Of a DNA stretch of 64,000 nt, positions 7,402 to 55,749 are shown one piece after another. The stretch is from Phycisphaerae bacterium (GTDB lineage: Bacteria > Planctomycetota > Phycisphaerae > Phycisphaerales > UBA1924), in assembly GCA_014192545.1 (NCBI GenBank), contig BJHL01000003.1, forward strand, positions 310,001 to 374,000, in the 5' to 3' direction. The notes below the pieces were generated by a model. That model saw only the letters and a program-made list of their open reading frames with translations, did not search any database and had not been told where the DNA came from. The number at the start of each line of letters is the position of its first letter. The stretch's first letter is position 1. Position numbers and translations under genes: made by a program.

Positions 7402-9420
7402 ATGGCTGACCTGAAGAATCTTAAAGGCATTTCGGAATCTGACCGCAAACTGCTGGAGCAAGCCGAAGAGTGGCTTGGTGCAGAGCCCACCAAGATGGGT
7501 CCGATGAAGAATTTGTTCTGGGGCCGGGTGAAGGAAGATTACTACTTCCCGTATCCGTCGCAGGATGCGCGCGAGCAAGCGGAGTGCGATCAGCTGCTGG
7601 CTCGGCTAGATGAGTATTTGCGCAACGAGCATCCGGCGATTCAGATTGACCAAGAGCAAGAGATTCCGCGCTGGGTCATTGACAAGCTGTTTAGCTTGGG
7701 CGTGCTGGGCATGACGATTCCGAAGGAATTCGGCGGGCTGAGCATGGGCATTACCAGCTACAACCGCGTGCTTGAGCGGCTGGGGCAATCGTGCGGCAGC
7801 ACGGCGGTGCTGGTGTCGGCTCACCAGAGCATTGGTTGCAAGGCTGTGATGTTGTTTGGCAATACCGAGCAAAAAGCCAAGTGGCTGCCGCGTCTCGCGA
7901 AGGACTGGGTGAGTGCGTTCTGTTTGAGCGAGCCCAACGTTGGCTGTGATGCGGGCGGGCAGGAAACCAACTTCACGATTTCCAGCGACGGCACGCATTA
8001 CATCTTGAATGGCGAGAAGAAGTGGGCGACGAGCGGCGCGATCTCGGGTTTGTTTACGGTCATGGCTCGCGAAGTGCGGCCTGACGGCAAGGGAAAGATC
8101 AGCGCGCTGGTTTGCCATCCGGAGATGGAAGGCGTTGAGATCTACAGCAAGAACCGCAGCAAGATGAGCATTCGCGGGACGTGGCAGGCGCGTATTCGCT
8201 TCCACAACGTGAAGGTGCCCAAGGCCAACTTGCTTGGTCAGGAAGGCCGGGGGTTGCAGATTGCGCTTTCGTGCCTCAATTACGGTCGCTGCACGCTGAG
8301 TGCGGGCATGTTGGGCGGGGCGCGCTCGGCGATGGATCAGAGCATCAAGTGGAGCCAGACGCGGTATCAGTTTGGCAAGCCGCTGAGCGCGAATGAACTG
8401 GTTCGGCAGAAGGTCGCTCGCATGGCGGCTTTGTCGTATGCGATGGACTCGGTGCTGTACATGACGACGGGCATGCTTGATCGCAAGGATGATGACATCC
8501 AGGTTGAAACTGCGGTGTGCAAGGTTTTCTGCAGTGAGATGGGCTGGCGCGTGGTGAATGATGCGGTGCAGATCATGGGCGGCGAAAGCGCCATGACTGA
8601 GAACGAAGTTGAACGTATTTTCCGTGACTCACGCATCAACCTGATCGTTGAAGGCGCGAATGAAGTCATGCAGAGCTACGTGTTTGGTTACGGCGGCAAG
8701 CAGCTTGCCGAGATGATGCTGGGCATCAAGAACGCATTGCTCAAGGACCCTGACGAAGGCCTTGGTTCGTTTGTTGGCAAGGCTCTGAAGAACAGCTTCC
8801 GTCCGGCGATCATGAGCCGGGCGATTCCGCTGGGCTTGGAAGTCTTCCTGGGCATTCGCAAGAGTGCGACGCAATTGACGAAGGTGCATCCGGAACTGGC
8901 TGAGCCTGCGGCACGCGCGGCTCGCTTGGCGACGGAGATGACCTATCAGTTCAAGGTCATGAGCAAGAAGTTTGACGTCAAAATGCTTGAGCGGCAAGCA
9001 GTGCAGGCCCGCATCGCCAACGTTGCGATTCTGCTACATGGCTGGCTGTGCACGCTGGCGAAGCTGGATCAAGATATTCGCAAGCACGCCGGCAACGGCG
9101 CGGGCGATCTTGAGTATCAACGCGACAAGGCGGCGGCGTTCCACTTCTTTGATCTCGCTGAAGTCGAGATTCATCAGAACTTCCGCGACCTGTACGAGAA
9201 CGCCGACGACAGCATGCTCAAGACGGCGGAGATTGCTCTCAAGCACAACGACACGCTGGCGGCGGAACGGTTTGTCATTCCTGAGAAGACCCCCACTGCG
9301 CTGCGCGGCAAGGGCCACAAGCCCGATCAGAAAGCGATCAAGCAGTTCCCGGGCGAGCCTTATCACGGCGCGCGGAGCGAGTGGCATGATCGGCCGCAGC
9401 AAGTGGGCGGCAAGGCGTAA
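7402..9420 (+). CDS. Acyl-CoA dehydrogenase, VLCAD/ACAD9-like long form
   Basis: 672 aa FAD flavoenzyme, predicted to carry out the first oxidation of fatty-acid beta-oxidation. The N-terminal alpha and central beta domains carry the family signatures (FCLSEPNVGCDAGG; EGRGLQIA), and the catalytic base is Glu417 in IVEGANE, the position of the VLCAD/MCAD glutamate (YEGT in MCAD). An extra C-terminal region of about 190 residues after the catalytic domain is typical of VLCAD/ACAD9 and suits long-chain substrates and membrane association. Starts at ATG 7402; stands alone between two terminators, so probably monocistronic. Confidence 0.9.
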   Translation: MADLKNLKGISESDRKLLEQAEEWLGAEPTKMGPMKNLFWGRVKEDYYFPYPSQDAREQAECDQLLARLDEYLRNEHPAIQIDQEQEIPRWVIDKLFSLGVLGMTIPKEFGGLSMGITSYNRVLERLGQSCGSTAVLVSAHQSIGCKAVMLFGNTEQKAKWLPRLAKDWVSAFCLSEPNVGCDAGGQETNFTISSDGTHYILNGEKKWATSGAISGLFTVMAREVRPDGKGKISALVCHPEMEGVEIYSKNRSKMSIRGTWQARIRFHNVKVPKANLLGQEGRGLQIALSCLNYGRCTLSAGMLGGARSAMDQSIKWSQTRYQFGKPLSANELVRQKVARMAALSYAMDSVLYMTTGMLDRKDDDIQVETAVCKVFCSEMGWRVVNDAVQIMGGESAMTENEVERIFRDSRINLIVEGANEVMQSYVFGYGGKQLAEMMLGIKNALLKDPDEGLGSFVGKALKNSFRPAIMSRAIPLGLEVFLGIRKSATQLTKVHPELAEPAARAARLATEMTYQFKVMSKKFDVKMLERQAVQARIANVAILLHGWLCTLAKLDQDIRKHAGNGAGDLEYQRDKAAAFHFFDLAEVEIHQNFRDLYENADDSMLKTAEIALKHNDTLAAERFVIPEKTPTALRGKGHKPDQKAIKQFPGEPYHGARSEWHDRPQQVGGKA

Positions 9421-9432
9421 GGCAGGTGATCC

Positions 9433-9472
9433 GCCGACGCCGGACCTGAGGCTCTGCGAAGGTCCGGATCAA
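9433..9472 (-). repeat. Dispersed palindromic repeat, copy 1
   Basis: 8-bp perfect arms CCGGACCT (9440-9447) and AGGTCCGG (9460-9467) around a 12-nt loop, flanked by GCCGACG. The same unit occurs inverted at 10130-10167 and 33652-33687, differing at one loop base. It sits between the acyl-CoA dehydrogenase stop and its terminator. Confidence 0.85.
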
Positions 9473-9505
9473 ACTCGGTTCAACGCAACATAGTCAGCAA
9501 ACAAG

Positions 9506-9536
9506 AAACCCCTGCAGCCTCCTGCAGGGGTTTTTC
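9506..9536 (+). terminator. Terminator of the acyl-CoA dehydrogenase gene (bidirectional)
   Basis: Stem CCCCTGCAG (9509-9517) / CTGCAGGGG (9522-9530) extended by AAA/TTT, followed by TTTTT. It also lies just beyond the stop of the minus-strand response regulator (9555), with an A-run on the other side, so it can serve both. Confidence 0.9.
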
Positions 9537-9554
9537 ACTTCTCTGGCTGCTGTT

Positions 9555-9965
9555 TCATTCTTCGTCCATCAACTCCGCCACCGTGTCAATCAGCTTATTC
9601 AGCGGCACGGGCTTGTGCAGGTACGCATCTGCACCCAGGCTCTCGGCATAGGCCTCGTGGCGTTTGCCTTCGTTGGCGGTCACCATGATGACGGCGGGGG
9701 CTTCTTCGGTGCCTTTGATTTTTTCGAGCACCAGGAAGCCGCTGCGCTTGGGGAGCATCATGTCGAGGATGACGACATCGGGCTCGTCGCTTTGGCAGAT
9801 GCGGACGGCGTCGTTGCCGTCGCGGCAGAGTTGGGTGAGGGCACCTTCGGCTTGGAAAGCGGCGTCGAAACTTTGCAGCACGTCCTCGTCATCGTCGACG
9901 ATGAGCACGCGGACGTCTTCGAGTCGGCGGCGGGGGCGGGCGAGCGGGGCGGGGGTGTCGGTCAT
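9555..9965 (-). CDS. Single-domain response regulator (CheY-like receiver)
   Basis: 136 aa: a receiver domain with a short N-terminal Pro/Arg-rich tail and no output domain. Acidic pocket Asp24/Asp25, phospho-acceptor Asp68 (VVILDMMLP), switch Thr96 (MVTAN) and Lys118 (HKPV) are all present, so it should be phosphorylated by a histidine kinase and act through a partner protein. ATG 9965 is preceded by GAGGAG; a TTG at 9974 in frame is the alternative. No kinase gene is adjacent. Confidence 0.93.
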   Translation of the reverse strand: MTDTPAPLARPRRRLEDVRVLIVDDDEDVLQSFDAAFQAEGALTQLCRDGNDAVRICQSDEPDVVILDMMLPKRSGFLVLEKIKGTEEAPAVIMVTANEGKRHEAYAESLGADAYLHKPVPLNKLIDTVAELMDEE

Positions 9966-10129
9966 CACGGGCAAGGCTCCTCGATAGCGTGTAGCTGGGT
10001 GACGATACGTGCGGGCGGGGTGGGAAGGTTGCTGGGATAGTCAGGAAGGGGAGGGGTGAATCCGAAAACAGGTGCAGGGATCAGGGTGTAGGTTGAGTGG
10101 CGTGGGTGCAAATCGGCGCAACTGGTGGT

Positions 10130-10167
10130 TGATCCGGACCTTCGCAGGGCCTCAGGTCCGGCGTCGG
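10130..10167 (+). repeat. Dispersed palindromic repeat, copy 2
   Basis: Arms CCGGACCT (10134-10141) and AGGTCCGG (10154-10161), then CGTCGG. Inverted relative to copy 1, one loop difference. Confidence 0.85.
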
Positions 10168-10209
10168 AAGCGCGAAAATTCGGGCGGTTTTGCCCCGCCG
10201 GGGGCCGCG

Positions 10210-10236
10210 GGGGCTGCTTCCGCGAAGAGCAGCCCC
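10210..10236. repeat. GC-rich hairpin near the palindromic repeat
   Basis: Perfect 9-bp arms GGGGCTGCT (10210-10218) and AGCAGCCCC (10228-10236) with loop TCCGCGAAG. No T-run on either side, so it does not look like a terminator. Confidence 0.6.
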
Positions 10237-10317
10237 GCACGCGGCGACACGCCGGCCAGGACGATCAGCCCCGCGCTCCCCACGACGGGTGCGGGACTGC
10301 GATGGGAGGAATATACC

Positions 10318-10359
10318 ATGAAACGCGTGGTTTGGGAACCCCCAAAACGCCATTTTTAG
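10318..10359 (+). CDS. Possible 13-residue leader-like peptide
   Basis: ATG preceded at 7 nt by GGGAGGA opens a 13-codon frame (MKRVVWEPPKRHF) closed by TAG. The ribosome site is stronger than that of most genes here, but the peptide has no known relative and the next plus-strand gene (purM) starts 586 bp away. It may be chance or the remains of a gene start. Confidence 0.2.
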   Translation: MKRVVWEPPKRHF

Positions 10360-10526
10360 CGTTCAAGTTGGCTTCTGAGGCGTCTTGAAGCGGGGACGTA
10401 AAATCGAATCTTGACCATTCGTCGTGCGAGCAAGATGCTGTTGTGCGATCAACGGCATCCTCAATTTGGCAAGCGACGCGACAGCGGTGGTCGTATTGGG
10501 ATTTAGCCCTATTTTGTCAAGTGCGT

Positions 10527-10868
10527 TCATTCCACGTCGACGAGCCCCTGCTCGATAATGTGTCGCGTTATTTCATACGCGAGCATCTCATAATGCTCGG
10601 GGCCCGGTCTGTCGTCCCCATATGTGATCACAATCTTGGCAAAAAGATGCCGAAAGTTTTCGTCGCACGCTGCGGCAACACCGCTTGCGACGTGAGGAAT
10701 GATGTCTTTCCAATCGACGCGTCGAGTTCCGTCCGAAGGCACGAACCGCATGATGAGTTCAGGCTGGTTCACAGGCCGAGAGCTCAAAGCCAAGCCCAGA
10801 AAGCAATGCCTCGGCCCAGTGATCTTGGAACTGCAAATGCAACCGTCTTGGATCACGAATTGCGGCAT
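10527..10868 (-). CDS. Hypothetical protein
   Basis: 113 aa, no recognised family. The C-terminal 60 residues read like a folded alpha/beta protein (FAKIVITYGDDRP; EMLAYEITRHIIEQ), which argues for a real gene over the overlapping plus-strand frame. No signal peptide or membrane segment. No good ribosome site precedes the ATG at 10868; internal starts are possible. Convergent with nothing; purM starts 76 bp away, divergent. Confidence 0.5.
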   Translation of the reverse strand: MPQFVIQDGCICSSKITGPRHCFLGLALSSRPVNQPELIMRFVPSDGTRRVDWKDIIPHVASGVAAACDENFRHLFAKIVITYGDDRPGPEHYEMLAYEITRHIIEQGLVDVE

Positions 10869-12712: not shown

Positions 12713-12744
12713 CCCACTCACCCACTCACCCACTCACCCGCTCG
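12713..12744. repeat. Octanucleotide tandem repeat (CCCACTCA) at the aroA stop
   Basis: Three perfect copies of CCCACTCA (12713-12736) and a degenerate fourth. The aroA stop codon and last codons are read from this repeat. Confidence 0.85.
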
Positions 12745-14225
12745 CCCTCACCCCACCACTTAGCGAAGTCTGCCCAGTAACCCACGTACGTCTTCGCAAC
12801 GCACTGCGGTTCGACGATCACGACATTGGGGCGACGCAAGGCGATCAGGCTCAGGGCCATCGCCATGCGGTGATCGTCGTAGGTTGCGAACTCGACGAGT
12901 GGTGCGGCGGGCGAGCAGTCGAAGCCTCCGGCGGGCGGCGTGATCGTCAACGCATCGGGATCGCCTTGCGCGCCGACGTCCACTCGCACGCCCAGTTTGC
13001 TGAGTTCAGCGCGAACGGCCTCGATGCGATCTGTTTCCTTGACGCGAAGGGTGCGTAAGCCGTGAAGCACGCTGGTGCCTTTCGCGAAACACGCCACGCT
13101 TGCGAGCGTCATCGCTGCGTCGGGCATGTCGGACAGATCGGCGAGAATGGGCGATAGCTCGGCGGGTCCGGTCACGGTGGTGAGGTCATCACCTGCGTCG
13201 TTGGTCGTGCGATCTACTTCGGCGCCCATTCTCGCGAGCAGGTCGGGAAATGACGCATCACCTTGCAGGCTGCGTTTGCCCAGGCCCGGCGTCTCGCACG
13301 TTACTCCGGGCAGCAGTGTTGCGGCGGCCCATGCGTAGGTTGCGCCGCTGGCGTCGGGCTCGATGTCGTACTTGAAGGCGGGCATGCCGCATGGAGCGAT
13401 CGTGCTCCGCACTTCGCGATCAATCACGCCGCGCACGCGGATGACGCGCAAATCTTCGCTGCATTGCACGCTTGCGCCGAGCCGAGCGAGAAGGCCCAGG
13501 GACATGCGCACGTAGCTTTCGCTGGTGAGTGTGCCGGCGCTGCGGAGCATGATGCCGCCTGGCAAGAACGCGGCGGCGAGCAGCACCGCGCTGACGAACT
13601 GGCTGCTTTGCGTGGTGCCGATTGTGAGTTCGCGTCGCGTTGCGTTGAGCGGAGCGGGCACGATGCGCATCGGCGGGTAGCCGTCGCGCAGGGCGAAAGA
13701 AACTTCGCAGCCGAGTTGCCGGAGGACCTCAGCGAGTTCGCCGATTGGGCGCTCGCGCATGCGGGCGTTGCCGTCGATCGTGATAGGGTGCTGAGCGAGC
13801 GTGGCGCAGCCGGCGAGAAAACGCGTTGCGGTGCCGGCGTTGTTGAGGTTGAGCGTGACTTCGCCAGTTGTGCGCCATGTGCCATCGACGCCTGTGACGC
13901 GGACGCAGCGCGGATCGCTGGCGTTGATTGTCGCGCCCAGCGTCGAAAGTGCGGCGAGCATGCGCTGGGCGTCGTCGGCGTCGAGCAGTGCGCCGCGCAG
14001 TTCGCTCTCGCCGCGAGCCAAGGCGGCGAGCAGCAGTGCGCGATTGCTCAGACTCTTGCTGCCGGGAGGCGTGATGACGACTCGCGTTCCGGGCTTGACG
14101 ACTGGCGGTAGCGGCAGGTGCAAATGCGCGGGCATTTGTGCAATTGGAAATCGCAGGGCAGCTTCGAGCTGGCTTTGCGAGCGCGTGTGCGGTTGGGCTT
14201 CGGGTTGGCGCGCTGCATCGCTCAT
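12726..14225 (-). CDS. aroA: 3-phosphoshikimate 1-carboxyvinyltransferase (EPSP synthase)
   Basis: 499 aa enzyme of the shikimate pathway, transferring enolpyruvyl from PEP to shikimate-3-phosphate. Motifs: PPGSKSLSNRALLLAAL (substrate-binding Lys), NNAGTATRFL, GNARMRERPIGEL, QSSQFVSAVLLAA, LRVKETDRI and YDDHRMAMAL. About 60 residues longer than usual, mostly a Gln/Ala-rich N-terminal extension before residue 45. Start ATG 14225 (MSDAARQ) is the first reasonable ATG; a later start cannot be excluded. The 3' end runs into the octanucleotide repeat. The valS stop is 83 bp upstream on the same strand. Confidence 0.95.
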   Translation of the reverse strand: MSDAARQPEAQPHTRSQSQLEAALRFPIAQMPAHLHLPLPPVVKPGTRVVITPPGSKSLSNRALLLAALARGESELRGALLDADDAQRMLAALSTLGATINASDPRCVRVTGVDGTWRTTGEVTLNLNNAGTATRFLAGCATLAQHPITIDGNARMRERPIGELAEVLRQLGCEVSFALRDGYPPMRIVPAPLNATRRELTIGTTQSSQFVSAVLLAAAFLPGGIMLRSAGTLTSESYVRMSLGLLARLGASVQCSEDLRVIRVRGVIDREVRSTIAPCGMPAFKYDIEPDASGATYAWAAATLLPGVTCETPGLGKRSLQGDASFPDLLARMGAEVDRTTNDAGDDLTTVTGPAELSPILADLSDMPDAAMTLASVACFAKGTSVLHGLRTLRVKETDRIEAVRAELSKLGVRVDVGAQGDPDALTITPPAGGFDCSPAAPLVEFATYDDHRMAMALSLIALRRPNVVIVEPQCVAKTYVGYWADFAKWWGEGERVSG

Positions 14226-14308
14226 GCTTGTCGACCAAGCTGTGCGAACACAGTGCTGCACACAGCCAAGATTCTCTCTCCACATCTCACGAACTACTGA
14301 AAACTTGC

Positions 14309-41149: not shown

Positions 41150-42157
41150 ATGCGCAGTTCGTTCTCGCATCGAGTCCATTCCGCACTCGTTCTCGCACTG
41201 CTCGCTGGCACAACAGCCCACGCCCAGCTCGCCGAACCACTTGCTGGCCGACTCGAAGCCCAAGTCTTCAACCCCGCAACGAACACCTGGGGCAACGCGC
41301 TCACAGTCGCCCCCGCCTCCCGCATCGAGTTCCGCTTCATCGTCTCCTACACCGGTACCAACACCAACGTCTTCGCCCTCGGCGGCATCACCTACCAACC
41401 CACTTTCAGCAATATCGACAACACCGCCGCCGACGGCAGCATCGATCAAACGTTGCCTTGGCGAAACAACGGCAATCAAGGCAACGGCATTGCCAACAAC
41501 ACGAGCATGCTCACCGCGAGTGAGGGTCAGACGGGCAGCCCACTCCCTTCCTACGGCCGCGTGGTATTTGGCGGTGTCGCCGCCAACAGTGCGAGTCAAA
41601 ACACAATCACGACCCACCGCCACGGCGGCGACTTCGCAACCAACAACGCGCCAACAGGTTCTTGGCTTCGTCTGGCTGGCAGCAGCGTCACTAGTTGGCC
41701 ACTCGCCACACTCTCGCAAGCGCAAGCAACGTCGACAAACCTCAACAACATCAATCGCGGAATCTACGCCAATCAGCAGGCACTCCAGGTTCCTCTGAGT
41801 ATTCCTCCCAATCCGTTCCATGTCGCGGGCACCCAAAACCTCGTCATCTTCCGCGGCGCTCTCCAACTCAGCGACCTTTCAACCGCTCGCACCATTGATC
41901 TCAGCAGTGCTGCCGGTACCCAGCAACGGATCGGCGCTGTCAACTCGCCGAATGACACACGCTTCATGACTTGGCAAATCAACAACTTCGGCACCACAAC
42001 CCAAGTCGGCGTCGAAACCCTCCCCGCCACCATCCAAGTCATCCCCGCGCCCACAACCACCGCCCTCATCGCTGGCCTGCTTCTCACCGCAGCCCGGCGT
42101 CGACGCACGCCGCAATCTCATCATTCACGCACGCACACACCGGAGTTCCAACCATGA
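41150..42157 (+). CDS. Secreted PEP-CTERM-like protein, tandem family member 1
   Basis: 335 aa. ATG 41150 is preceded by AAGGGGG; signal peptide to about THAQ. First of five adjacent paralogues with shared blocks: VSYTGTNTNVFALGG, YQPTFSNIDN, LPSYGRVVFGG, THRHGGDF, GSWLRLAGSSV and AGTQNLVIFRGAL. Near the C-terminus: a short VIPAPTTT, a hydrophobic helix and RRRR, like a PEP-CTERM sorting tail, though here followed by about 14 more residues that are read from the intergenic part. Its TGA stop overlaps the ATG of member 2. Function unknown. Confidence 0.85.
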   Translation: MRSSFSHRVHSALVLALLAGTTAHAQLAEPLAGRLEAQVFNPATNTWGNALTVAPASRIEFRFIVSYTGTNTNVFALGGITYQPTFSNIDNTAADGSIDQTLPWRNNGNQGNGIANNTSMLTASEGQTGSPLPSYGRVVFGGVAANSASQNTITTHRHGGDFATNNAPTGSWLRLAGSSVTSWPLATLSQAQATSTNLNNINRGIYANQQALQVPLSIPPNPFHVAGTQNLVIFRGALQLSDLSTARTIDLSSAAGTQQRIGAVNSPNDTRFMTWQINNFGTTTQVGVETLPATIQVIPAPTTTALIAGLLLTAARRRRTPQSHHSRTHTPEFQP

Positions 42158-43077
42158 AACCCATCACCACTGCCTCTGCACTCGTTCTCGTCGCCGCCTT
42201 CGCGAACATCGCCGCAGCGCAGCCCGAAAGCCGCGTCCAACTGCAAGTCTTCGATCCCGCCCTCAACGCGTGGACCAACTCCATCAACGCCGCTCCCGGC
42301 TCGCGCGTCGAATGGCGCGTCCGCGTCTCCTACACCGGCACCAACACCAACGTCTTCGCCTTGGGAGGCCTGCGCTACCAACCCACCTTCAGCAACATCG
42401 ACAACACCGGCCCCAACTTCGACGATCTCGCCCCCTGGCGTAACGGCGGCAACCAAGGCAACGGCATCCCCAACAGCATGCTCTCGGCTGCCGAAGGTGA
42501 AAGCGGCGCACCTCTCGATAGTTATGGCCGCGTCGTGTACGGTGCCACTACAGCCGCCAGTGCATCACAAAACACGATTACCACATGGCGCCACGGCGGC
42601 GACTTCCCACGCCCCTTTACGCCACCAGGCTCGTGGCTGCGTGTTGCTGGCATCAGCGAAAATATCTGGCCTCAGTGGCCGCAGCCCGGCGACTTCCCCG
42701 TCGGCTCGTTCGGCACCCGTGGTGTTCTAGCCAATCAGCAGGCCGCCGTCAATCCCGTCACGGGCCTTGTCAACACATGGCACATTGCCGGCACCCAAAA
42801 CCTCGTCGTCTTCCGCGGCGCGTTGCTCCTCAGCACCGATACCGACCGCACCGGCAACATCACAATCGATATTCCGCAAGAGTCACTACAGGGCACCGGC
42901 TCCGGCACGCCCGATGGCACGCCTCCCTTCCGCTTCATGACATGGCAGACCACTCAATTCGGCACCACGCTCCAATCGGGCGTACTCATCGAACCAGCCA
43001 CCATCGTCATCCCCACTCCCGCCACGCTCGGCCTCGTCGCTGCCGCGCTCGGCATCAACCTCCGCCGCCACCGCTAA
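42154..43077 (+). CDS. Secreted PEP-CTERM-like protein, tandem family member 2
   Basis: 307 aa, starting in the ATGA overlap with member 1 (GGAG upstream), so translationally coupled. Signal peptide MKPITTASALVLVAAF..., mature start near AAAQP. Same blocks: VSYTGTNTNVFALGG, YQPTFSNIDN, TWRHGGDF, AGTQNLVVFRGALLL, FRFMTWQ. It ends VIPTPATLGLVAAAL then RRHR. The variable middle (ENIWPQWPQPGDFP) differs from the others. Function unknown. Confidence 0.85.
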   Translation: MKPITTASALVLVAAFANIAAAQPESRVQLQVFDPALNAWTNSINAAPGSRVEWRVRVSYTGTNTNVFALGGLRYQPTFSNIDNTGPNFDDLAPWRNGGNQGNGIPNSMLSAAEGESGAPLDSYGRVVYGATTAASASQNTITTWRHGGDFPRPFTPPGSWLRVAGISENIWPQWPQPGDFPVGSFGTRGVLANQQAAVNPVTGLVNTWHIAGTQNLVVFRGALLLSTDTDRTGNITIDIPQESLQGTGSGTPDGTPPFRFMTWQTTQFGTTLQSGVLIEPATIVIPTPATLGLVAAALGINLRRHR

Positions 43078-43091
43078 CGAAAGGAACGCCC

Positions 43092-44030
43092 ATGTTCACT
43101 CGCCACTTGATCAGTTCGCTCATCGCACTCACCGGCCTCGCAACGCTCGCGCAAGCGCAAACCCCAATCGAGCCCAACGCCTCCCGCATCGAGCTTCAAG
43201 TCTTCGACACAACCGCGAACGCGTGGACGTCCAGCACCAACGTCTCGCCCAACACGCGCGTCGAGTGGCGCGTCCGCGTCTCCTACACCGGCACCAACAC
43301 CAACGTCTTCGCGTTGGGCAGCGTCCTCTACCAACCCACGTTCAGCAATATCGACAACGACAACACCATCGGCACACGAGATGACCTGGGCGTGTGGCGT
43401 CAACCCTCCAACATCACCGGCGAAACCGGCATTCTCTCCGCAGCCGAGGGCGAATCAGGCGGCCCCCTCCCCAGCTATGGCCGTGTCGCCTTCGGCGGCT
43501 CCTCCATGAACACCACGAGTCAGAATGCCCTCACCACCTTCCGCCACGGCGGCGGCACGCCACAAAACCTCGCCCCCGCCGGATCATGGCTGCGTGTTGC
43601 AGGTTCATCTGTCATCAGTTGGCCTCCTGCCACAGTAGTAATAAACGTCGACGCAAACGCGCTCAACAGCATCAACCGCGGCGTTGCCTCAAACCAAGCT
43701 GCCGCAGTGAACCCTGTCACTGGTCTCGCCAATTCTCTCCACATCACCGGCACCCAAAACCTGGTCATCTTCCGCGGTGCAATTCTGCTTAGCGACGCCC
43801 AAGACCTTCGCACCATCGCCCTCTCCATCGCCCCCGGCAGTCTGCCGCGCTCAGGCGGCATCAATTCGCCCGATGATGAACGATCCATGAGCTGGCAGGC
43901 CTCCCAATTCGGCACCATCATCCGCACCCAAGTCGCAATCGCCGACGCCAGCATCGTTGTCATCCCGTCGCCAGGTGCCGGTTTGCTCTTCATCGCCGCA
44001 CTAGGATTTTGCCGCAATCGTCGAAGGTAA
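43092..44030 (+). CDS. Secreted PEP-CTERM-like protein, tandem family member 3
   Basis: 312 aa; AAGGAA 7 nt before ATG 43092. Signal peptide to about AQAQ. Shares RVSYTGTNTNVFALGS, YQPTFSNIDN, GPLPSYGRVAFGG, TTFRHGGG, GSWLRVAGSSV and TGTQNLVIFRGAILLSD, and ends VIPSPGAGLLFIAAL plus RNRRR. Bases 43155-43227 are identical to member 4 except at one position, showing recent duplication or gene conversion between the two. Confidence 0.85.
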   Translation: MFTRHLISSLIALTGLATLAQAQTPIEPNASRIELQVFDTTANAWTSSTNVSPNTRVEWRVRVSYTGTNTNVFALGSVLYQPTFSNIDNDNTIGTRDDLGVWRQPSNITGETGILSAAEGESGGPLPSYGRVAFGGSSMNTTSQNALTTFRHGGGTPQNLAPAGSWLRVAGSSVISWPPATVVINVDANALNSINRGVASNQAAAVNPVTGLANSLHITGTQNLVIFRGAILLSDAQDLRTIALSIAPGSLPRSGGINSPDDERSMSWQASQFGTIIRTQVAIADASIVVIPSPGAGLLFIAALGFCRNRRR

Positions 44031-44061
44031 CTCGTCAATTGCAGGATAATGGAGAACGTAC

Positions 44062-44994
44062 ATGAGAGTCACATTCCTCGCTGCTCTATCGCTTGCGGCC
44101 CAACTCGCGCACGCGCAAACCCCAATCGAGCCAAACGCCTCCCGCATCGAGCTTCAAGTCTTCGACACAACCGCGAACGCGTGGACATCCACCACAACCG
44201 TCACACCCAACGCCCGCATCGAGTGGCGCGTCCGCGTCTCCTATACCGGCACCAACAGCAACGTTCTGGCTCTGAGCAGCATTCGGTACCAACCCACTTT
44301 CAGCAACATCGACAACGACAACACCATCGGCACGCGTGATGATCTTGCGGCGTGGCGTCGCCCCAACACCTTCTTGGGCACAACCGATATTCTCTCGCAA
44401 GAGGAAGGTGAAATCGGCGGCCCACTTCCCGGCTACGGCCGGGTGGCATTCATTGGCGTCGCGATGAGTTCTACATCCCTCAATGCTCTCACGATGTTCC
44501 GCCACGGCGGCGGTGCGCCCCAGAACGCAGCTCCTGCTGGCTCATGGCTGCGTATCGCTGGCTCGGGCGCTCCGTCTTGGCCCCTTGCGACAGTAACCGC
44601 CGCAAGCGCAACAGTCGCAAATCTCAGCAACATCGCACGTGGCGTCGTTGCATCCCAAGCTTCGGAAATCAATCCCATTACCGGTAGCACCAACCCCTTC
44701 TACCTTGCGGGCACACAAAACCTCGTCGTCTTCCGCGGCGCGTTGCTCCTGAGCGATCTCCAAGACCCACGCACGCTCGCGCTCTCCATCGCGCCCGGCA
44801 GTCAAGACCGCGCCGGAACAAACAACTCGCCCGATGATGCGAGATTTATGACCTGGTTTACATCGCAAACCGGCTCAAGCATCCGCACCCAAGTCGCATT
44901 CACCGACGCCAGCATCGTCGTCGTTCCGTCACCAACTGCGCTCACGTCGTTCTCCCTCCTGCTGCTGGCCGCAGCGCGGCGTCGTCGTCCATAA
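44062..44994 (+). CDS. Secreted PEP-CTERM-like protein, tandem family member 4
   Basis: 310 aa; GGAGA upstream of ATG 44062. Signal peptide to about AHAQ. Closest to member 3 (TPIEPNASRIELQVFDTTAN in both) but diverged later: NSNVLALSS replaces NTNVFALGS and IGVAMSS replaces GGSSMN. It ends VVPSPTALTSFSLLLLAAA plus RRRRP. Intergenic gaps of 14-31 bp in this array indicate one operon. Confidence 0.85.
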   Translation: MRVTFLAALSLAAQLAHAQTPIEPNASRIELQVFDTTANAWTSTTTVTPNARIEWRVRVSYTGTNSNVLALSSIRYQPTFSNIDNDNTIGTRDDLAAWRRPNTFLGTTDILSQEEGEIGGPLPGYGRVAFIGVAMSSTSLNALTMFRHGGGAPQNAAPAGSWLRIAGSGAPSWPLATVTAASATVANLSNIARGVVASQASEINPITGSTNPFYLAGTQNLVVFRGALLLSDLQDPRTLALSIAPGSQDRAGTNNSPDDARFMTWFTSQTGSSIRTQVAFTDASIVVVPSPTALTSFSLLLLAAARRRRP

Positions 44995-45012
44995 CCCAAC
45001 CCGGAGTCTGCA

Positions 45013-45966
45013 ATGCGTTCACGCTCACTCATCACTTCACTCTCACTCGCCACGTCGCTCTTCTTCGCCGCAGGCGCGACAGCGCAGGTCAACGAACCGA
45101 ACGCCGCACGTCTTTCGGTGCAGGTTTGGAACGGCTCATCATGGTCGTCGTCAGCCTCGTCGATTTACGTTCCCGGCGCCACCGTGCAGTGGCGCGTGAC
45201 ACTGTCGTACACAGGTACCAATACCAACGTCTTCGCGTTAGGAAGCGTCACGTATCAGCCGATCTTCATAGCCGCTGACAACACGAACAACCTCGGCGGG
45301 GTTGACACCATCGGTCCATGGCGCAACGGCGGACAGCAGGGCAGCGCCATCGCCAACTCAATGCTGTCCGCAGCAGAAGGTAACACCGGTAGTGCATTGC
45401 CCTCATACGGCCGCGTGCTCTTCGGCGGCACGGCGATGCAATCGTCGAGTTTCAACACCTTGACGACGTTCCGCCACGGCGGTGACTCGCCACAGGCTGG
45501 CGCGCCGCCCGGCTCGTACCTCCGAGTCGCAGGCAGTTCCGTCACAAACTGGCCCGCACCCACTCTCGACGCCTCTGGCGCGACCGTGGACAGCATCAAC
45601 GCGATCAATCGCGGAGTCCTCAGCAACCAGCAATCGCAAACCAATCCAGCGACGGGTCTTGTCAACACCTATCACGTTGCAGGAACGCAGAATCTCGTGC
45701 TCTTCCGCGGGGCATACACCTTCAGCGGCTCGCCGGATCGATTCACCGGCGGAACTTTCACGATCGCACCCGGCTCACAAGCCCGCGCGGGCGGTGTAGG
45801 CAGCAGCGACGACACTCGCTTTATAACTTGGCAAACAAACAATTTCGACTTCGGTTCCTGGCGCACTGGATTCACGGTCGAAGGTGCGTCGTACATCGTG
45901 CCCGGACCAGGAACAATCGCCGCACTCGCGGCTGCGGGCGTCTTCGCCATGCGCCGCAGACGATAA
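45013..45966 (+). CDS. Secreted PEP-CTERM-like protein, tandem family member 5
   Basis: 317 aa; last of the array. Signal peptide MRSRSLITSLSLATSLFFAA..., mature start near TAQV. The most divergent member: SVQVWNGSSW in place of LQVFD, but LSYTGTNTNVFALGS, ALPSYGRVLFGG, TTFRHGGD, GSYLRVAGSSV, AGTQNLVLFRGA and TWQTNNF remain. It ends YIVPGPGTIAALAAAGVFA plus MRRRR. A terminator stem follows. Confidence 0.85.
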   Translation: MRSRSLITSLSLATSLFFAAGATAQVNEPNAARLSVQVWNGSSWSSSASSIYVPGATVQWRVTLSYTGTNTNVFALGSVTYQPIFIAADNTNNLGGVDTIGPWRNGGQQGSAIANSMLSAAEGNTGSALPSYGRVLFGGTAMQSSSFNTLTTFRHGGDSPQAGAPPGSYLRVAGSSVTNWPAPTLDASGATVDSINAINRGVLSNQQSQTNPATGLVNTYHVAGTQNLVLFRGAYTFSGSPDRFTGGTFTIAPGSQARAGGVGSSDDTRFITWQTNNFDFGSWRTGFTVEGASYIVPGPGTIAALAAAGVFAMRRRR

Positions 45967-45984
45967 ATGCAGCGAAACATCGCC

Positions 45985-46020
45985 CACAAAAAAACGCCGT
46001 GTTCACTACACGGCGTTTCT
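45985..46020 (-). terminator. Terminator of murA (bidirectional)
   Basis: AAACGCCGTG (45992-46001) / CACGGCGTTT (46009-46018); the A-run 45988-45994 gives a T-tail on the minus strand for murA. The plus-strand T-tail is weaker but may also stop the five-gene array. Confidence 0.85.
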
Positions 46021-46046: not shown

Positions 46047-47537
46047 TCACGCCTCCTGCGCCGCCAGTTCCTTCTCATCCACGCGCTGAATGTTGGCTCC
46101 CAGCATCCGCAGCCGATCCTCAAACCGCTCATAGCCGCGATCAAGGTGATAGATGCGGTTCACAATCGTCGTGCCTTCCGCGGCCAAACCAGCAAGCACC
46201 AGGCCCGCGCTCGCACGCAAGTCACTAGCCATCACCGGCGCACCCTTCAGGCTCTTCACGCCCGTAATCACCACCGTGCTGCCCACGCGTGCAATCTTCG
46301 CGCCCATGCGCAGCAGTTCTGCCACGTGCAGGAAGCGATCGGGGAAAATCCGCTCCGTCACCACGCTGTTTCCGTCGGCGAGGCACAACATCGAAACCAG
46401 TTGCGCCTGCAAATCCGTCGGATAGCCCGGATGCGGCTGCGTCGTCACCTCAACTGGCTTGAGCACGCGCTCGCACGTCACGCGCACGCTGCGCCGCATT
46501 GCATCGCCATCCTTGATCAGATGCCCATCGGCCGAACCTGAAATCGCAGTCAGCAAACTCTGACGATGCCGGGCCATCGCGCTGCTCATGCCGCCGCCAT
46601 TCGTGTTGCCGTTCGCGCTCGCGTTCGTCGGCACACTCCCCGCACTCAACGCTTTCGCGCCCGCAACCGGCTGCACGTGCACGCCAGCCATGTTCAGCAC
46701 AAACGTGCTCGCCAGCAACGCATCCATCGGGCAATTATCCAAAATCAGATCGCCATTGGTCATCGCCGCGGCCATCATGAACGTGCCCGCCTCGATGCGA
46801 TCGGGAATCACCGTGTGATCCGCGCCGCCCAGTTGCTCCACACCTTCAATGATGAGCCTTGGCCCACCCGCGCCATAAATCTTCGCGCCCATCGCATTGA
46901 GCAAGTTCGCCAAGTCCACGATCTCAGGTTCACACGCTGCCTGCTCAATCACCGTCGTGCCCTTGGCGAGTGCGGCTGCACACATCACGTTGGCCGTACC
47001 CAGCACCGTGCTGCCAAAAGCTCCGCCCAAGAAAATCGTCGTGCCCACCAGCCCGCCGCTGGGAACCTTCGCGATGATGTCGCCCTCGGTCAACGTAATC
47101 TGCGCACCCAGTGCGCGCAGCCCACGCAGATGCAGGTCCACAGGTCTATCACCAATCGAGCACCCGCCCGGCAAGCTAATTCTCGCAAACCCGCGGCGCG
47201 CCAGCATGGGCCCCAGCGTGCAGATGCTCGCCCGCATCGTCCGCACAATGTCATACCGCGCGTGGCTCGCGCTCGGGTCCGTCACTTGCAGACCGATCGT
47301 GCCATTCGTAAATGCAGCGTCACACGCTTCGCCCGGCGCATCCGTCCGCACCACTCCCAGTTCGCCCAGCAGCCGAAGCATGTTCTTGATATCCGCCAGA
47401 TTCGGCACATCGCGCAGAATCACCGGCTGATCCGTCAGCAAACACACCGCCAGCATGGGCAGTGCAGCGTTTTTGCTGCCGTTGATGCGAACTCGACCAT
47501 ACAGGCGGTGACCGCCCTCGATGACAAAGGTGTCCAT
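46047..47537 (-). CDS. murA: UDP-N-acetylglucosamine 1-carboxyvinyltransferase
   Basis: 496 aa, first committed step of peptidoglycan synthesis (enolpyruvyl transfer from PEP). Lys22 (NGSKNAALP), catalytic Cys126 in PGGCSIGDRPVDLH and the C-terminal HPGYPTDLQAQ block are present; Cys (not Asp) at 126 suggests fosfomycin-sensitive chemistry. About 75 residues longer than usual, mostly a Ser/Asn/Gly-rich insert at about 291-350 before RVLKPVEVTTQPHP. Its presence indicates that this organism makes peptidoglycan. Confidence 0.96.
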   Translation of the reverse strand: MDTFVIEGGHRLYGRVRINGSKNAALPMLAVCLLTDQPVILRDVPNLADIKNMLRLLGELGVVRTDAPGEACDAAFTNGTIGLQVTDPSASHARYDIVRTMRASICTLGPMLARRGFARISLPGGCSIGDRPVDLHLRGLRALGAQITLTEGDIIAKVPSGGLVGTTIFLGGAFGSTVLGTANVMCAAALAKGTTVIEQAACEPEIVDLANLLNAMGAKIYGAGGPRLIIEGVEQLGGADHTVIPDRIEAGTFMMAAAMTNGDLILDNCPMDALLASTFVLNMAGVHVQPVAGAKALSAGSVPTNASANGNTNGGGMSSAMARHRQSLLTAISGSADGHLIKDGDAMRRSVRVTCERVLKPVEVTTQPHPGYPTDLQAQLVSMLCLADGNSVVTERIFPDRFLHVAELLRMGAKIARVGSTVVITGVKSLKGAPVMASDLRASAGLVLAGLAAEGTTIVNRIYHLDRGYERFEDRLRMLGANIQRVDEKELAAQEA

Positions 47538-47867: not shown

Positions 47868-48848
47868 ATGAAATATGGCAAGCACAAAGTCGGTCTTCTG
47901 CTGCTCGTCGCAGGCATGGCGTGCTCAGCAGCAAACGCACATTCCACTCCAACGGCCACAGTCCGCACGGACACCCCCGGTAGCTCCGTCGGTAGCTCCG
48001 TCGCAACCCCCACGCCCGCCCAGCCCCCCCCCCAGCCCCCGGCGCTGCCCGCAACCATCACTCTCCAAGCCACTATCCGCGACTTGCGCGCAGCCGAAAA
48101 CTCCAACGGCCACCCCGACTTCCAAACCTTCGGCGGCAGCAACGCCACGGTTGATCTCGTCAGCGACACCTTGGGAGAAGACGGCAAGCCCGTACTCCGC
48201 AACGGCGGCATCGGCAAACACATCGGCGTTGAATGGCGCGACAGCCAGAACCGCCCCATCAATCCTCGCAACTTCCGCGCAGACCGCGGCCACCGCGCTG
48301 GCTCGTTCAACAATCAGAACAACCGCCAAGTTATCAGTGCGCAAAGTTTCCGCGGCTGGTACAACGACATCCCAGGCCTCAACGCCAGCCGCTTGGTTGA
48401 CATTATCCTCGTGCGCCAGGCCAACTCGTCGCGCTACGTCTTTGATTCGGCGACGCAGCAACCATGGGCCTCACGCGGCGGCTTCTTCCCCATCAACGGC
48501 GAACTCTTCGGCAACTACGGCAACTGGGGCAAGAACTTCCACTTCACCACCCAGCTCGAAGCCGACTTCGTCTATCAAGCCCAAGACAATCAAGTCTTCA
48601 CCTTCAGCGGCGACGATGACGTCTGGGTCTTCATCAATGGCAAGCTGGTCATCGACTTGGGCGGCCTGCACCCCCGCCGCGAGCAAACCGTGAACCTCAA
48701 CGATCTTGGCTACTTGGAAGACGGCAGTAATTACCGCTTCAAGATCTTCCACGCCGAACGTCGCACCAATGAAAGCAACTTCCGCATGGAAACCACGATT
48801 CAGTTCCGCGCGGTCGAGCCGCCCGTGACCAGCGCTCTGTTTGACTGA
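47868..48848 (+). CDS. Secreted fibro-slime domain protein, paralogue 1
   Basis: 326 aa; strong ribosome site (GAGGAG) before ATG 47868. Signal peptide (MKYGKHKVGLLLLVAGMACS), a Pro/Thr-rich linker to about 62, then a fibro-slime (TIGR02148-type) domain: IRDLRAAENSNGHPDFQ at its start, GGFFPINGELFGNYG, FTFSGDDDVWVFINGKLVID, and FHAERRTNESNFRMETT at its end. This PA14-like fold with GDDDVWVFxxGKL is known in slime-mould prespore proteins and bacterial surface proteins and is thought to bind carbohydrate. Shares its last residues (EPPVTSALFD) with paralogue 2. Confidence 0.88.
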   Translation: MKYGKHKVGLLLLVAGMACSAANAHSTPTATVRTDTPGSSVGSSVATPTPAQPPPQPPALPATITLQATIRDLRAAENSNGHPDFQTFGGSNATVDLVSDTLGEDGKPVLRNGGIGKHIGVEWRDSQNRPINPRNFRADRGHRAGSFNNQNNRQVISAQSFRGWYNDIPGLNASRLVDIILVRQANSSRYVFDSATQQPWASRGGFFPINGELFGNYGNWGKNFHFTTQLEADFVYQAQDNQVFTFSGDDDVWVFINGKLVIDLGGLHPRREQTVNLNDLGYLEDGSNYRFKIFHAERRTNESNFRMETTIQFRAVEPPVTSALFD

Positions 48849-49108: not shown

Positions 49109-50041
49109 ATGAAGGTCACATGTTTCCTGGCTCTGAGTCTTGTGGGTCTACTCGCGACTACCGCCGGCGCGCAGATCTCATCCGCCGGCGGCTCGACGAA
49201 TCAGGTCGATGTCAACTCGCTGCCCACGAGCATTCAACTCAACGGCGTCGTGCGCGACTTCCGGGAGCGCAACGCGAGCGGCGGTCACCCCGACTTTGAA
49301 CGCAGCGGCGCGAGCGGCTTCTCGCACGGCAACTTCCAGGAGATCACGAAGGACGAACTGGGCGTGGACAAGAAGCCCGTATTCAACAGCACGGGCCGGC
49401 GTGTCAACTCCATGGCTCGGGACGCGTCGAATCGCCCCATCCTGCAGAAGCCCTACATCGCGTCGCGCTCTGGCGATGTCGCTCGCTCGGTGGCTTCCGG
49501 CACGAGCAACAGCCTTGCCGGCGAGGCGTCGTTCAACCAGTGGTACCGCGACGTGCCGGGCATCAATCTGTCCAAGCAGATTCCCATCACTCTCAAACGC
49601 ACTCAGGGCAGCAACGTCTACATCTTCGACGACAAGAACGATGAGACCTTCTGCAGCCGCAACGGCTTCTTCCCGATCAACAACGATCTGTTCGGCAACT
49701 CCGGCGGCAGCGGTCACGCCAATACGAACTACCACTTCACGTATGAACTCAACACCGAGTTCACGTACCAAGCTGGCGCCGGAAACCGCTTCACCTTCAC
49801 AGGCGACGATGACGTTTTCGTCTTCGTCGACGGCAAACTGGTGATCGATATCGGCGGCACGCACGGCGCCACCAGCCAGACCATTGAAATGGACCGCTTG
49901 AGCTGGCTGCAAAACGGCGAAACCTACGACCTGCGCTTCTTCTTCGCCGAGCGCCACCGCACCGCCAGCAACTTCCGCATCGAAACCACCCTCGTCCTTC
50001 GCAACCTCGAACCCCCGCAAACCACCGCGCTCTTCGACTAA
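49109..50041 (+). CDS. Secreted fibro-slime domain protein, paralogue 2
   Basis: 310 aa; AAGGAG before ATG 49109. Signal peptide to about AGAQ, then the same domain: VVRDFRERNASGGHPDFE, NGFFPINNDLFGNSG, FTFTGDDDVFVFVDGKLVID, FFFAERHRTASNFRIETT, and the shared C-terminus EPPQTTALFD. No Pro-rich linker, unlike paralogue 1. The pair lies downstream of the five-gene secreted array, suggesting a surface-protein region. Ligand unknown. Confidence 0.88.
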   Translation: MKVTCFLALSLVGLLATTAGAQISSAGGSTNQVDVNSLPTSIQLNGVVRDFRERNASGGHPDFERSGASGFSHGNFQEITKDELGVDKKPVFNSTGRRVNSMARDASNRPILQKPYIASRSGDVARSVASGTSNSLAGEASFNQWYRDVPGINLSKQIPITLKRTQGSNVYIFDDKNDETFCSRNGFFPINNDLFGNSGGSGHANTNYHFTYELNTEFTYQAGAGNRFTFTGDDDVFVFVDGKLVIDIGGTHGATSQTIEMDRLSWLQNGETYDLRFFFAERHRTASNFRIETTLVLRNLEPPQTTALFD

Positions 50042-54567: not shown

Positions 54568-55749
54568 TCACAGCAGCGGGTTCTTGACCCCGTGCGTGTA
54601 CTCGCCCATCGGGCTCATGTTCGGCATCGGATTCAGCAGCACATCCGTGTACAACTCGCTCAGATCAGGCACCGGCGCGGCTTCGGCAAGTTCAATGCCA
54701 TGCCGCACTTCTTCCTTCACGTCCGTCTGCAACTGCATGAACGCCTGCTCGCTGAGAACAAACGAACCATCAGCCTTTTTGCGTTCCGTCATCAGGTGTG
54801 ACGCAAGACGATCAATCGAGTCCTTGCCCTTGAACTGCTCGACTTCTTCCTTCGTGCGGTACTTCTGCGGATCGCTCATCGAGTGGCCCAGGTACCGATA
54901 CGTCTTGAGATCGACAAACGCCGGCTTCTGATTTTCCCGGCACCAATCAACGATGGGCTTGAAGTGGTCGTAGCAATCGATGACATCAAAGCCGTCGATG
55001 ATCGCACCGAGAATGCCGTACGCGTCGGCCTTCTTCGTGAGATCTTCCGACATCGTGGTGCCGCGATGAATCGCCGTGCCCATGCTGTAGCCGTTGTTTT
55101 CAACGACGTAGATGACGGGAATGTTCCACAAACCAGCAAGGTTCATCGCTTCGTGCAACGCCCCTTGGTTGAGTGCGCCATCGCCCAAGTACGCGAGTGA
55201 AACCTTCTTCTTCGCGGGGCCGCCCGTCACGCTGCGCTTCATCACTTCCCACTCATAGCGCGATGCGAAAGCAAGGCCGGTGCCCAGGGGCGTCTGCGCG
55301 CCGACGATGCCGTGGCCACCAAAGAGCCAGTTGGGCTTGTCGAACATATGCATGCTGCCGCCCTTGCCTTTGGCGCAGCCAGTGATCTTGCCATACATCT
55401 CGGCCATGCACGCTTCAACGCTCATGCCGCGAGCCAGCGCGTGGCCGTGATCGCGATACGCCGTGACGATTGGGTCATCGTGCTCAAGCGATTGAATGGT
55501 GCCCACCGCGGCGGCCTCTTGGCCGATGTACAAGTGGCAGAACCCGCCGATCTTTGCGGCTTGGTACGCCTGCGCGGTGCGGTTCTCAAACTCGCGAATG
55601 AGATACATGTCGCGCAGCCACTTGACAAGCGTCGCGTCAGGCAGCAGTTCGCTGGGACGCTTTCCCTTGCCGCGCTTCCATGCGGGGTTGGTGGGCAGAT
55701 TCTCGGGATGGCCGAGTGGATTGACCGCGTTGCTGTGGGCGATGCTCAT
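54568..55749 (-). CDS. pdhA: Pyruvate dehydrogenase E1 component, alpha subunit
   Basis: 393 aa ThDP-dependent subunit; decarboxylates pyruvate with E1-beta. ThDP motif GDGALNQGALHEAMNLAG ending in VVENN, and HIYGQEA-like YIGQEAAAVG near residue 80, GKGGSMHMFD, and HRGTTMSEDL support the call. E1-beta (pdhB) and E2/E3 are not next to it, which is unusual, since they are normally co-transcribed. Branched-chain 2-oxoacid dehydrogenase alpha is an alternative. Confidence 0.92.
   Translation of the reverse strand: MSIAHSNAVNPLGHPENLPTNPAWKRGKGKRPSELLPDATLVKWLRDMYLIREFENRTAQAYQAAKIGGFCHLYIGQEAAAVGTIQSLEHDDPIVTAYRDHGHALARGMSVEACMAEMYGKITGCAKGKGGSMHMFDKPNWLFGGHGIVGAQTPLGTGLAFASRYEWEVMKRSVTGGPAKKKVSLAYLGDGALNQGALHEAMNLAGLWNIPVIYVVENNGYSMGTAIHRGTTMSEDLTKKADAYGILGAIIDGFDVIDCYDHFKPIVDWCRENQKPAFVDLKTYRYLGHSMSDPQKYRTKEEVEQFKGKDSIDRLASHLMTERKKADGSFVLSEQAFMQLQTDVKEEVRHGIELAEAAPVPDLSELYTDVLLNPMPNMSPMGEYTHGVKNPLL

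Follow-up and report, generated by a model that had tools for sequence, protein, structure and literature searches.

A tandem array of five genes in a Phycisphaerae bacterium, found within a 64,000-nucleotide stretch of contig BJHL01000003.1 (hereafter the window), is probably a lineage-specific expansion of an exosortase-sorted, cohesin-fold extracellular protein serving the cell surface or exopolysaccharide (EPS) layer. The evidence comprises the architecture of the five proteins, the exosortases and similar tails encoded elsewhere in the genome (G000; other G-numbers denote genomes of relatives), a structural model of the shared domain and the distribution of its homologues.

Five tandem genes encode putative secreted proteins with a common plan

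The five genes (Table 1) lie adjacent on one strand; genes 1 and 2 share a 4-nt ATGA overlap and the remaining junctions are gaps of 14, 31 and 18 bp. Their products align over their full length with pairwise identities of 46–66%, far above what chance would give. All five open with a hydrophobic signal peptide that ends in AxA-Q (AHA-Q, AAA-Q, AQA-Q, AHA-Q and ATA-Q for genes 1–5, respectively), followed by a single domain of some 260 residues; in the C-terminal tail, V/I-P-x-P precedes a hydrophobic segment and a cluster of arginines. The tails read VIPAPTTTALIAGLLLTAARRRR in gene 1 and VIPTPATLGLVAAALGINLRRHR, VIPSPGAGLLFIAALGFCRNRRR, VVPSPTALTSFSLLLLAAARRRRP and IVPGPGTIAALAAAGVFAMRRRR in genes 2, 3, 4 and 5, respectively. 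In all five the basic cluster stands at the very C-terminal end, after the P-x-P and the hydrophobic helix, with gene 1 carrying a further 16 residues that overlap gene 2. The gene positions and spacing, and the signal peptide, single domain and tail of each paralogue, agree with a first-pass annotation of the sequence. The conserved blocks quoted there are likewise present, except that RHGGD reads RHGGG in genes 3 and 4, while its description of a graded set of surface or matrix proteins found no support. A single operon is plausible from the spacing, the stretches of GGA(G) that resemble ribosome-binding sites and a hairpin beyond the array.

The genome encodes two exosortases and many similar tails

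The 3.66 Mb genome, which is 94% complete, encodes two exosortases (PF09721, E values of 5e-50 and 4e-39). Both keep the EAC.G.RM, N..R and H motifs, with the Cys, Arg and His residues intact. The first lies inside an exopolysaccharide gene cluster, together with genes for an EpsI-like protein, a polysaccharide tyrosine autokinase, an EPS glycosylphosphotransferase and PrsT-like tetratricopeptide repeat proteins. Near the second, on contig C8, are a small V-P-x-P protein (8344–9093) and a subtilisin-like protease (9111–10691).

To score the tails we used TIGR02595 at its NCBI-curated cut-off of 16 bits. A first scan was empty, as was that with PF07589, because such short models hardly reach E ≤ 0.001; when the TIGR02595 genome scan was repeated at E ≤ 10, about 20 tails exceeded the cut-off genome-wide. 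These included array genes 1 (16.3 bits), 5 (18.7 bits) and 2 (17.3 bits with its in-frame neighbours, 14.7 bits alone), while gene 3 fell under it. Among control genomes, 2 of 14 gave matches above the cut-off. The places that we read encode diverse secreted proteins with a signal peptide and an end of the form V-P-[TSAG]-P...RRRR. Exosortases and further tails of this kind had been named as a check on the proposal that the array proteins are secreted and PEP-CTERM-like; both were found, and that proposal stands. Tandem pairs are found among further V-P-x-P proteins of the genome, which suggests that its exosortase substrates are commonly duplicated in tandem.

Two results weigh against assigning the array to this system. 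When the proteins are run singly through hmmscan, TIGR02595 stays below the cut-off for all five (13.6 bits for gene 5), and PF07589 gave no match; strict PEP-CTERM membership is therefore borderline. The borderline scores arise because the central E of the motif is replaced, by A, T, S or G, and in this the array differs from the PEP-CTERM/exosortase (EpsH) substrates described earlier (Haft 2006, PMC1569441). A homologue in G003 carries VPEP exactly. The likeness to that system extends to the signal peptide, the short P-x-P motif, the hydrophobic helix and the Arg cluster, the few known domains, the low content of Cys and basic residues, and an exosortase located beside EPS genes (PMC1569441). 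The flocculation-associated protein PepA (NF033554) is likewise a PEP-CTERM extracellular protein (PMC9850573). NF033554 matches one relative weakly (24.6 bits against a cut-off of 80). As this match depends on the tail and vanishes once the tail is removed, it gives no evidence of a domain in common with PepA, and we rejected that homology.

The array proteins contain 1 lysine in 1581 residues. Lysine makes up 0.5% of the V-P-x-P set and about 1% of proteins with dockerin-like tails (see below), compared with 4.6% of cytoplasmic proteins and 2.5–3% of secreted proteins outside these sets, the window's fibro-slime pair among them. A depletion specific to V-P-x-P proteins was rejected, as the dockerin-tailed proteins are also lysine-poor.

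The domain is unnamed and predicted to adopt a cohesin-like fold

Searches of Pfam, NCBIfam and PDB sequences with the five proteins and their homologues returned no convincing match to the domain. The cohesin profile PF00963 gave none in 24 members at E ≤ 1, nor in the five array proteins at E ≤ 5. An AlphaFold model of mature gene 3, built with 17 homologues (18 sequences), reached a predicted local distance difference test score (pLDDT) of 86.1 and a predicted template modelling score of 0.85; with only the five array sequences as input, the pLDDT was 42.5 and we base no claim on that model. Foldseek comparison with the PDB placed cohesins best (top E 6e-7). On re-alignment with VIA the 39 top rows were all cohesins (Z 9.6–8.1); the best (Z 9.6) had a root mean square deviation of 3.8, and the alignments, over model residues 2–269, covered as many as 146 of the 147 residues of a cohesin. 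The domain first described as unrecognised thus has no name in any library searched, yet is predicted to be a cohesin-like β-sandwich whose jelly-roll spans the whole cohesin.

The domain is larger than a cohesin (about 260 against about 145 residues), with roughly 100 residues in addition. Judged from the strand spacing of the model, these would lie between the strands at 59–62 and 201–209 and include the most conserved motifs, YGRV, RHGGD and LRVAG. It should be noted, as a point against the favoured reading, that the fold is predicted from 18 sequences and that cohesin-like sandwiches have many roles.

Over 22 diverse members, 8 residues are invariant and 9 more are at least 90% conserved, including R137, H121, D66 and W237. 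Such conservation would suit a carbohydrate-binding or enzymatic surface protein whose ligand or active site is built from the conserved R, H, D and W, and PEP-CTERM proteins elsewhere are required to keep EPS on cells (PepA, PMC9850573). However, neither Pfam nor NCBIfam gave an enzyme or carbohydrate-binding module match, and the top structural matches are protein-binding cohesins, which leaves this explanation improbable.

The family is confined to one lineage and expands by duplication

A family profile recovered homologues in other genomes down to E 1e-88, with 5, 6 and 9 matches in the genus mates G001–G003, respectively, and members in G005, G013 and G020. Full-profile matches in G009, G011, G018 and others were discarded as tail-only, and later searches used domain-only profiles. 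These gave further members in G032, G389 and G392 and, in G053 and G337, short and distantly related forms; a match in G354 was set aside as an apparent wrong-frame false positive. Relatives in named metagenome-assembled genome records were recovered by a contig search with a subset alignment. All members fall within one GTDB family of Phycisphaerales.

In a tree of 42 domains the copies cluster by genome (9 label changes, where shuffles give 28); all six from G000 fall into a single clade with support of 99/95. The sixth lies at a second site (C13, about 8–10.4 kb), is 60–61% identical to genes 1 and 5 and is followed by a copy that a run of N interrupts. Relatives with tandem copies of their own are G001, G002 (with 4-nt overlaps), G003, G020, G013, G389 and G392. 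The array itself is a lineage-specific expansion.

A diversifying surface coat, with tandem copies varying an exposed surface as immune or phage decoys, would also entail such an expansion, and copy number does vary among the genus mates (5–9 matches). But the ratio of nonsynonymous to synonymous substitution is about 0.26–0.54, well below 1 in all ten array pairs, and the motifs are strongly conserved; we regard this idea as highly improbable. In giant relatives of 1659–2579 residues the homologous domain is N-terminal and is followed by immunoglobulin-like, kelch-like or cadherin-like repeats, a context that points to a surface role.

Homologues with dockerin-like ends suggest a possible socket role

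In six homologues a dockerin-like C-terminus replaces the sorting tail. Two G003 members end in a two-repeat dockerin-like module without P-x-P; the others are a G053 relative, two G392 giants and one G032 giant (apparently a single repeat). Probing with the G003 module, which can match one protein more than once, gave 157, 130, 159, 148 and 143 matches in G000–G003 and G013, respectively; G020 had 1, and a further 35 relatives had 0. We read 17 dockerin-tailed proteins of the array's own genome. All end in such repeats, which in most are near-identical to CDxIDFNxNGVFPEDQDVIDFFNVLAGG (C-terminus DFNNNGVFPEDQDVIDFFNVLAGG), and most have a signal peptide. Compared with a canonical dockerin, the EF-hand-like loop has one extra residue. 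Pfam Dockerin_1 misses nearly all of these ends in this genome and NCBIfam gives them no name. In G005, canonical Dockerin_1 matches 75 times. The ends are species-specific, each species having its own version, and are borne by many unrelated secreted proteins. Among the proteins that carry them are peptidases of families M10 and M12B, a GH57 protein that also has starch-binding modules, metallophosphoesterase proteins and, in a relative, GH15.

One tentative interpretation, which we consider unlikely at present, is that the array domains are surface sockets, akin to anchoring scaffoldins, that bind the dockerin-like ends of about 150 secreted proteins and thereby display hydrolases in a non-cellulosomal system. 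Besides the predicted cohesin fold, it draws on the abundance of the uniform two-repeat end in G000–G003 and G013, and on its hydrolase-bearing cargo. No PF00963 cohesin passes the cut-off in G000–G003, G005 or G020, and the dockerin-like ends are thus without a known receptor there. Of the closely related genomes G000–G024, 7 have the family, and 6 of these also have the G003-module label, against none of the 18 that lack the family (Fisher 4e-5, or 0.003 at genus level); genus mates are not independent in these counts. The seventh positive genome, G005, has its canonical Dockerin_1 matches instead. ScaE of Ruminococcus flavefaciens is among the monovalent surface-anchored or adaptor scaffoldins. 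Family members share with scaffoldins of this kind the pairing of one domain with a C-terminus that is either a surface anchor or a dockerin. The six dockerin-tailed homologues resemble the adaptor ScaC, and sortase-anchored scaffoldins offer a further comparison (PMC11557425).

Several observations count against such sockets. A broader tail profile finds dockerin-like ends in family-negative genomes such as G009, G016, G264, G331 and G397. The family is therefore no general receptor, and obligate pairing is disfavoured by relatives with labels in which no family member was detected. G020 has three members and one dockerin-like end. Unlike PF00963 cohesins, the array domain has no sequence match to that profile, carries about 100 extra residues, an insertion that might mask the dockerin face, has an exosortase-type anchor and has candidate partners only; dockerin binding does not follow from a common cohesin fold. 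The class searches scored only 15 tail and 6 family candidates per genome. We do not use the class-wide Fisher comparison (7/8 versus 45/389) as support because its profile was built on genomes that have the family and one of the positives is false. The fuller proposal, in which exosortase-anchored sockets and dockerin-tailed homologues as adaptors form a species-specific display system for some 150 labelled secreted proteins, is slightly more doubtful still. A simpler view, that the two tails are alternative surface labels, also fits the tail swap.

A related proposal, the planctosome, was made for freshwater Phycisphaerae from cohesin/dockerin modules, an M12B peptidase and P-domain proteins (PMC6461901). 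What the present case shares with it is the class and such modules in combination with M12B peptidase and P-domain proteins. The proposed planctosome anchor is a 2210-residue lamin-tail protein, whereas the candidates here are small exosortase-tailed proteins.

Genomic neighbourhood of the array

Table 1 Features of the window
Feature	Position	Strand	Remarks
Gene 1	41150–42157	+	Signal peptide, predicted cohesin-fold domain, V-P-x-P tail, 16 extra residues
Gene 2	42154–43077	+	Domains and tail as gene 1; ATGA overlap with gene 1
Gene 3	43092–44030	+	Same signal peptide/domain/tail plan; mature form used for structure model
Gene 4	44062–44994	+	Same plan; nearest to gene 3 (66–68%)
Gene 5	45013–45966	+	Same plan; deepest branch within array
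11-bp hairpin	45992–46018		Between array and murA; fold of 45971–46020, −21.3 kcal/mol
murA	46047–47537	opposite to array	Convergent, downstream
Fibro-slime protein 1	47868–48848	+	TIGR02148; neighbourhood only
Fibro-slime protein 2	49109–50041	+	TIGR02148; neighbourhood only
Secreted 756-residue protein	368–2635	−	Two-repeat dockerin-like C-terminus (tail 371–580); candidate partner class, outside array

Upstream of the array is a tRNA-Ile gene, with HPF and PTS-EIIA genes. Downstream, the hairpin is possibly a terminator shared by the array and murA. The two fibro-slime paralogues (TIGR02148, E 7.5e-33 and 2.7e-30) said to lie beside the array are confirmed as such, but murA on the opposite strand intervenes, so "beside" holds only loosely. 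Both end in EPPxTxALFD, possibly another sorting or processing motif. The window has two genes of the EPSP-synthase fold, one at 12726–14285 and the other the murA-like gene. Like the array, one family member in G013 adjoins murA; a second one there adjoins a homologue of the window's E1 dehydrogenase gene (54568–55749). We dropped the idea of a murA-linked ancestral locus because no murA-adjacent member was found in G001–G003.

Discussion

We favour the reading of the array as exosortase substrates with a cohesin-like domain. On this model each copy would leave through Sec, and its C-terminal helix and arginine cluster would hold it in the inner membrane until one of the two exosortases recognises V/I-P-x-P and cleaves. 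The mature part would then reach the cell-surface or EPS layer, where the predicted sandwich, with its roughly 100 extra residues, may serve in binding or as a structural element. Unrecognised PEP-CTERM proteins are already known to expand as paralogues in this system (PMC1569441); what is new is the unnamed family with a predicted cohesin fold, which exosortase substrates thereby gain.

The array is of moderate interest by itself, and of higher interest for its possible link to dockerin-like labels. In this family the same secreted domain can end in either of two C-terminal labels, an exosortase tail or dockerin-like repeats. Should the domain indeed bind dockerin-like ends, the exosortase and dockerin sorting systems, which we did not find discussed together in the literature searched, would be linked. 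The attachment partner of the abundant dockerin-like modules of Phycisphaerales would then be explained, and dockerin-like ends without a recognised cohesin would gain a receptor.

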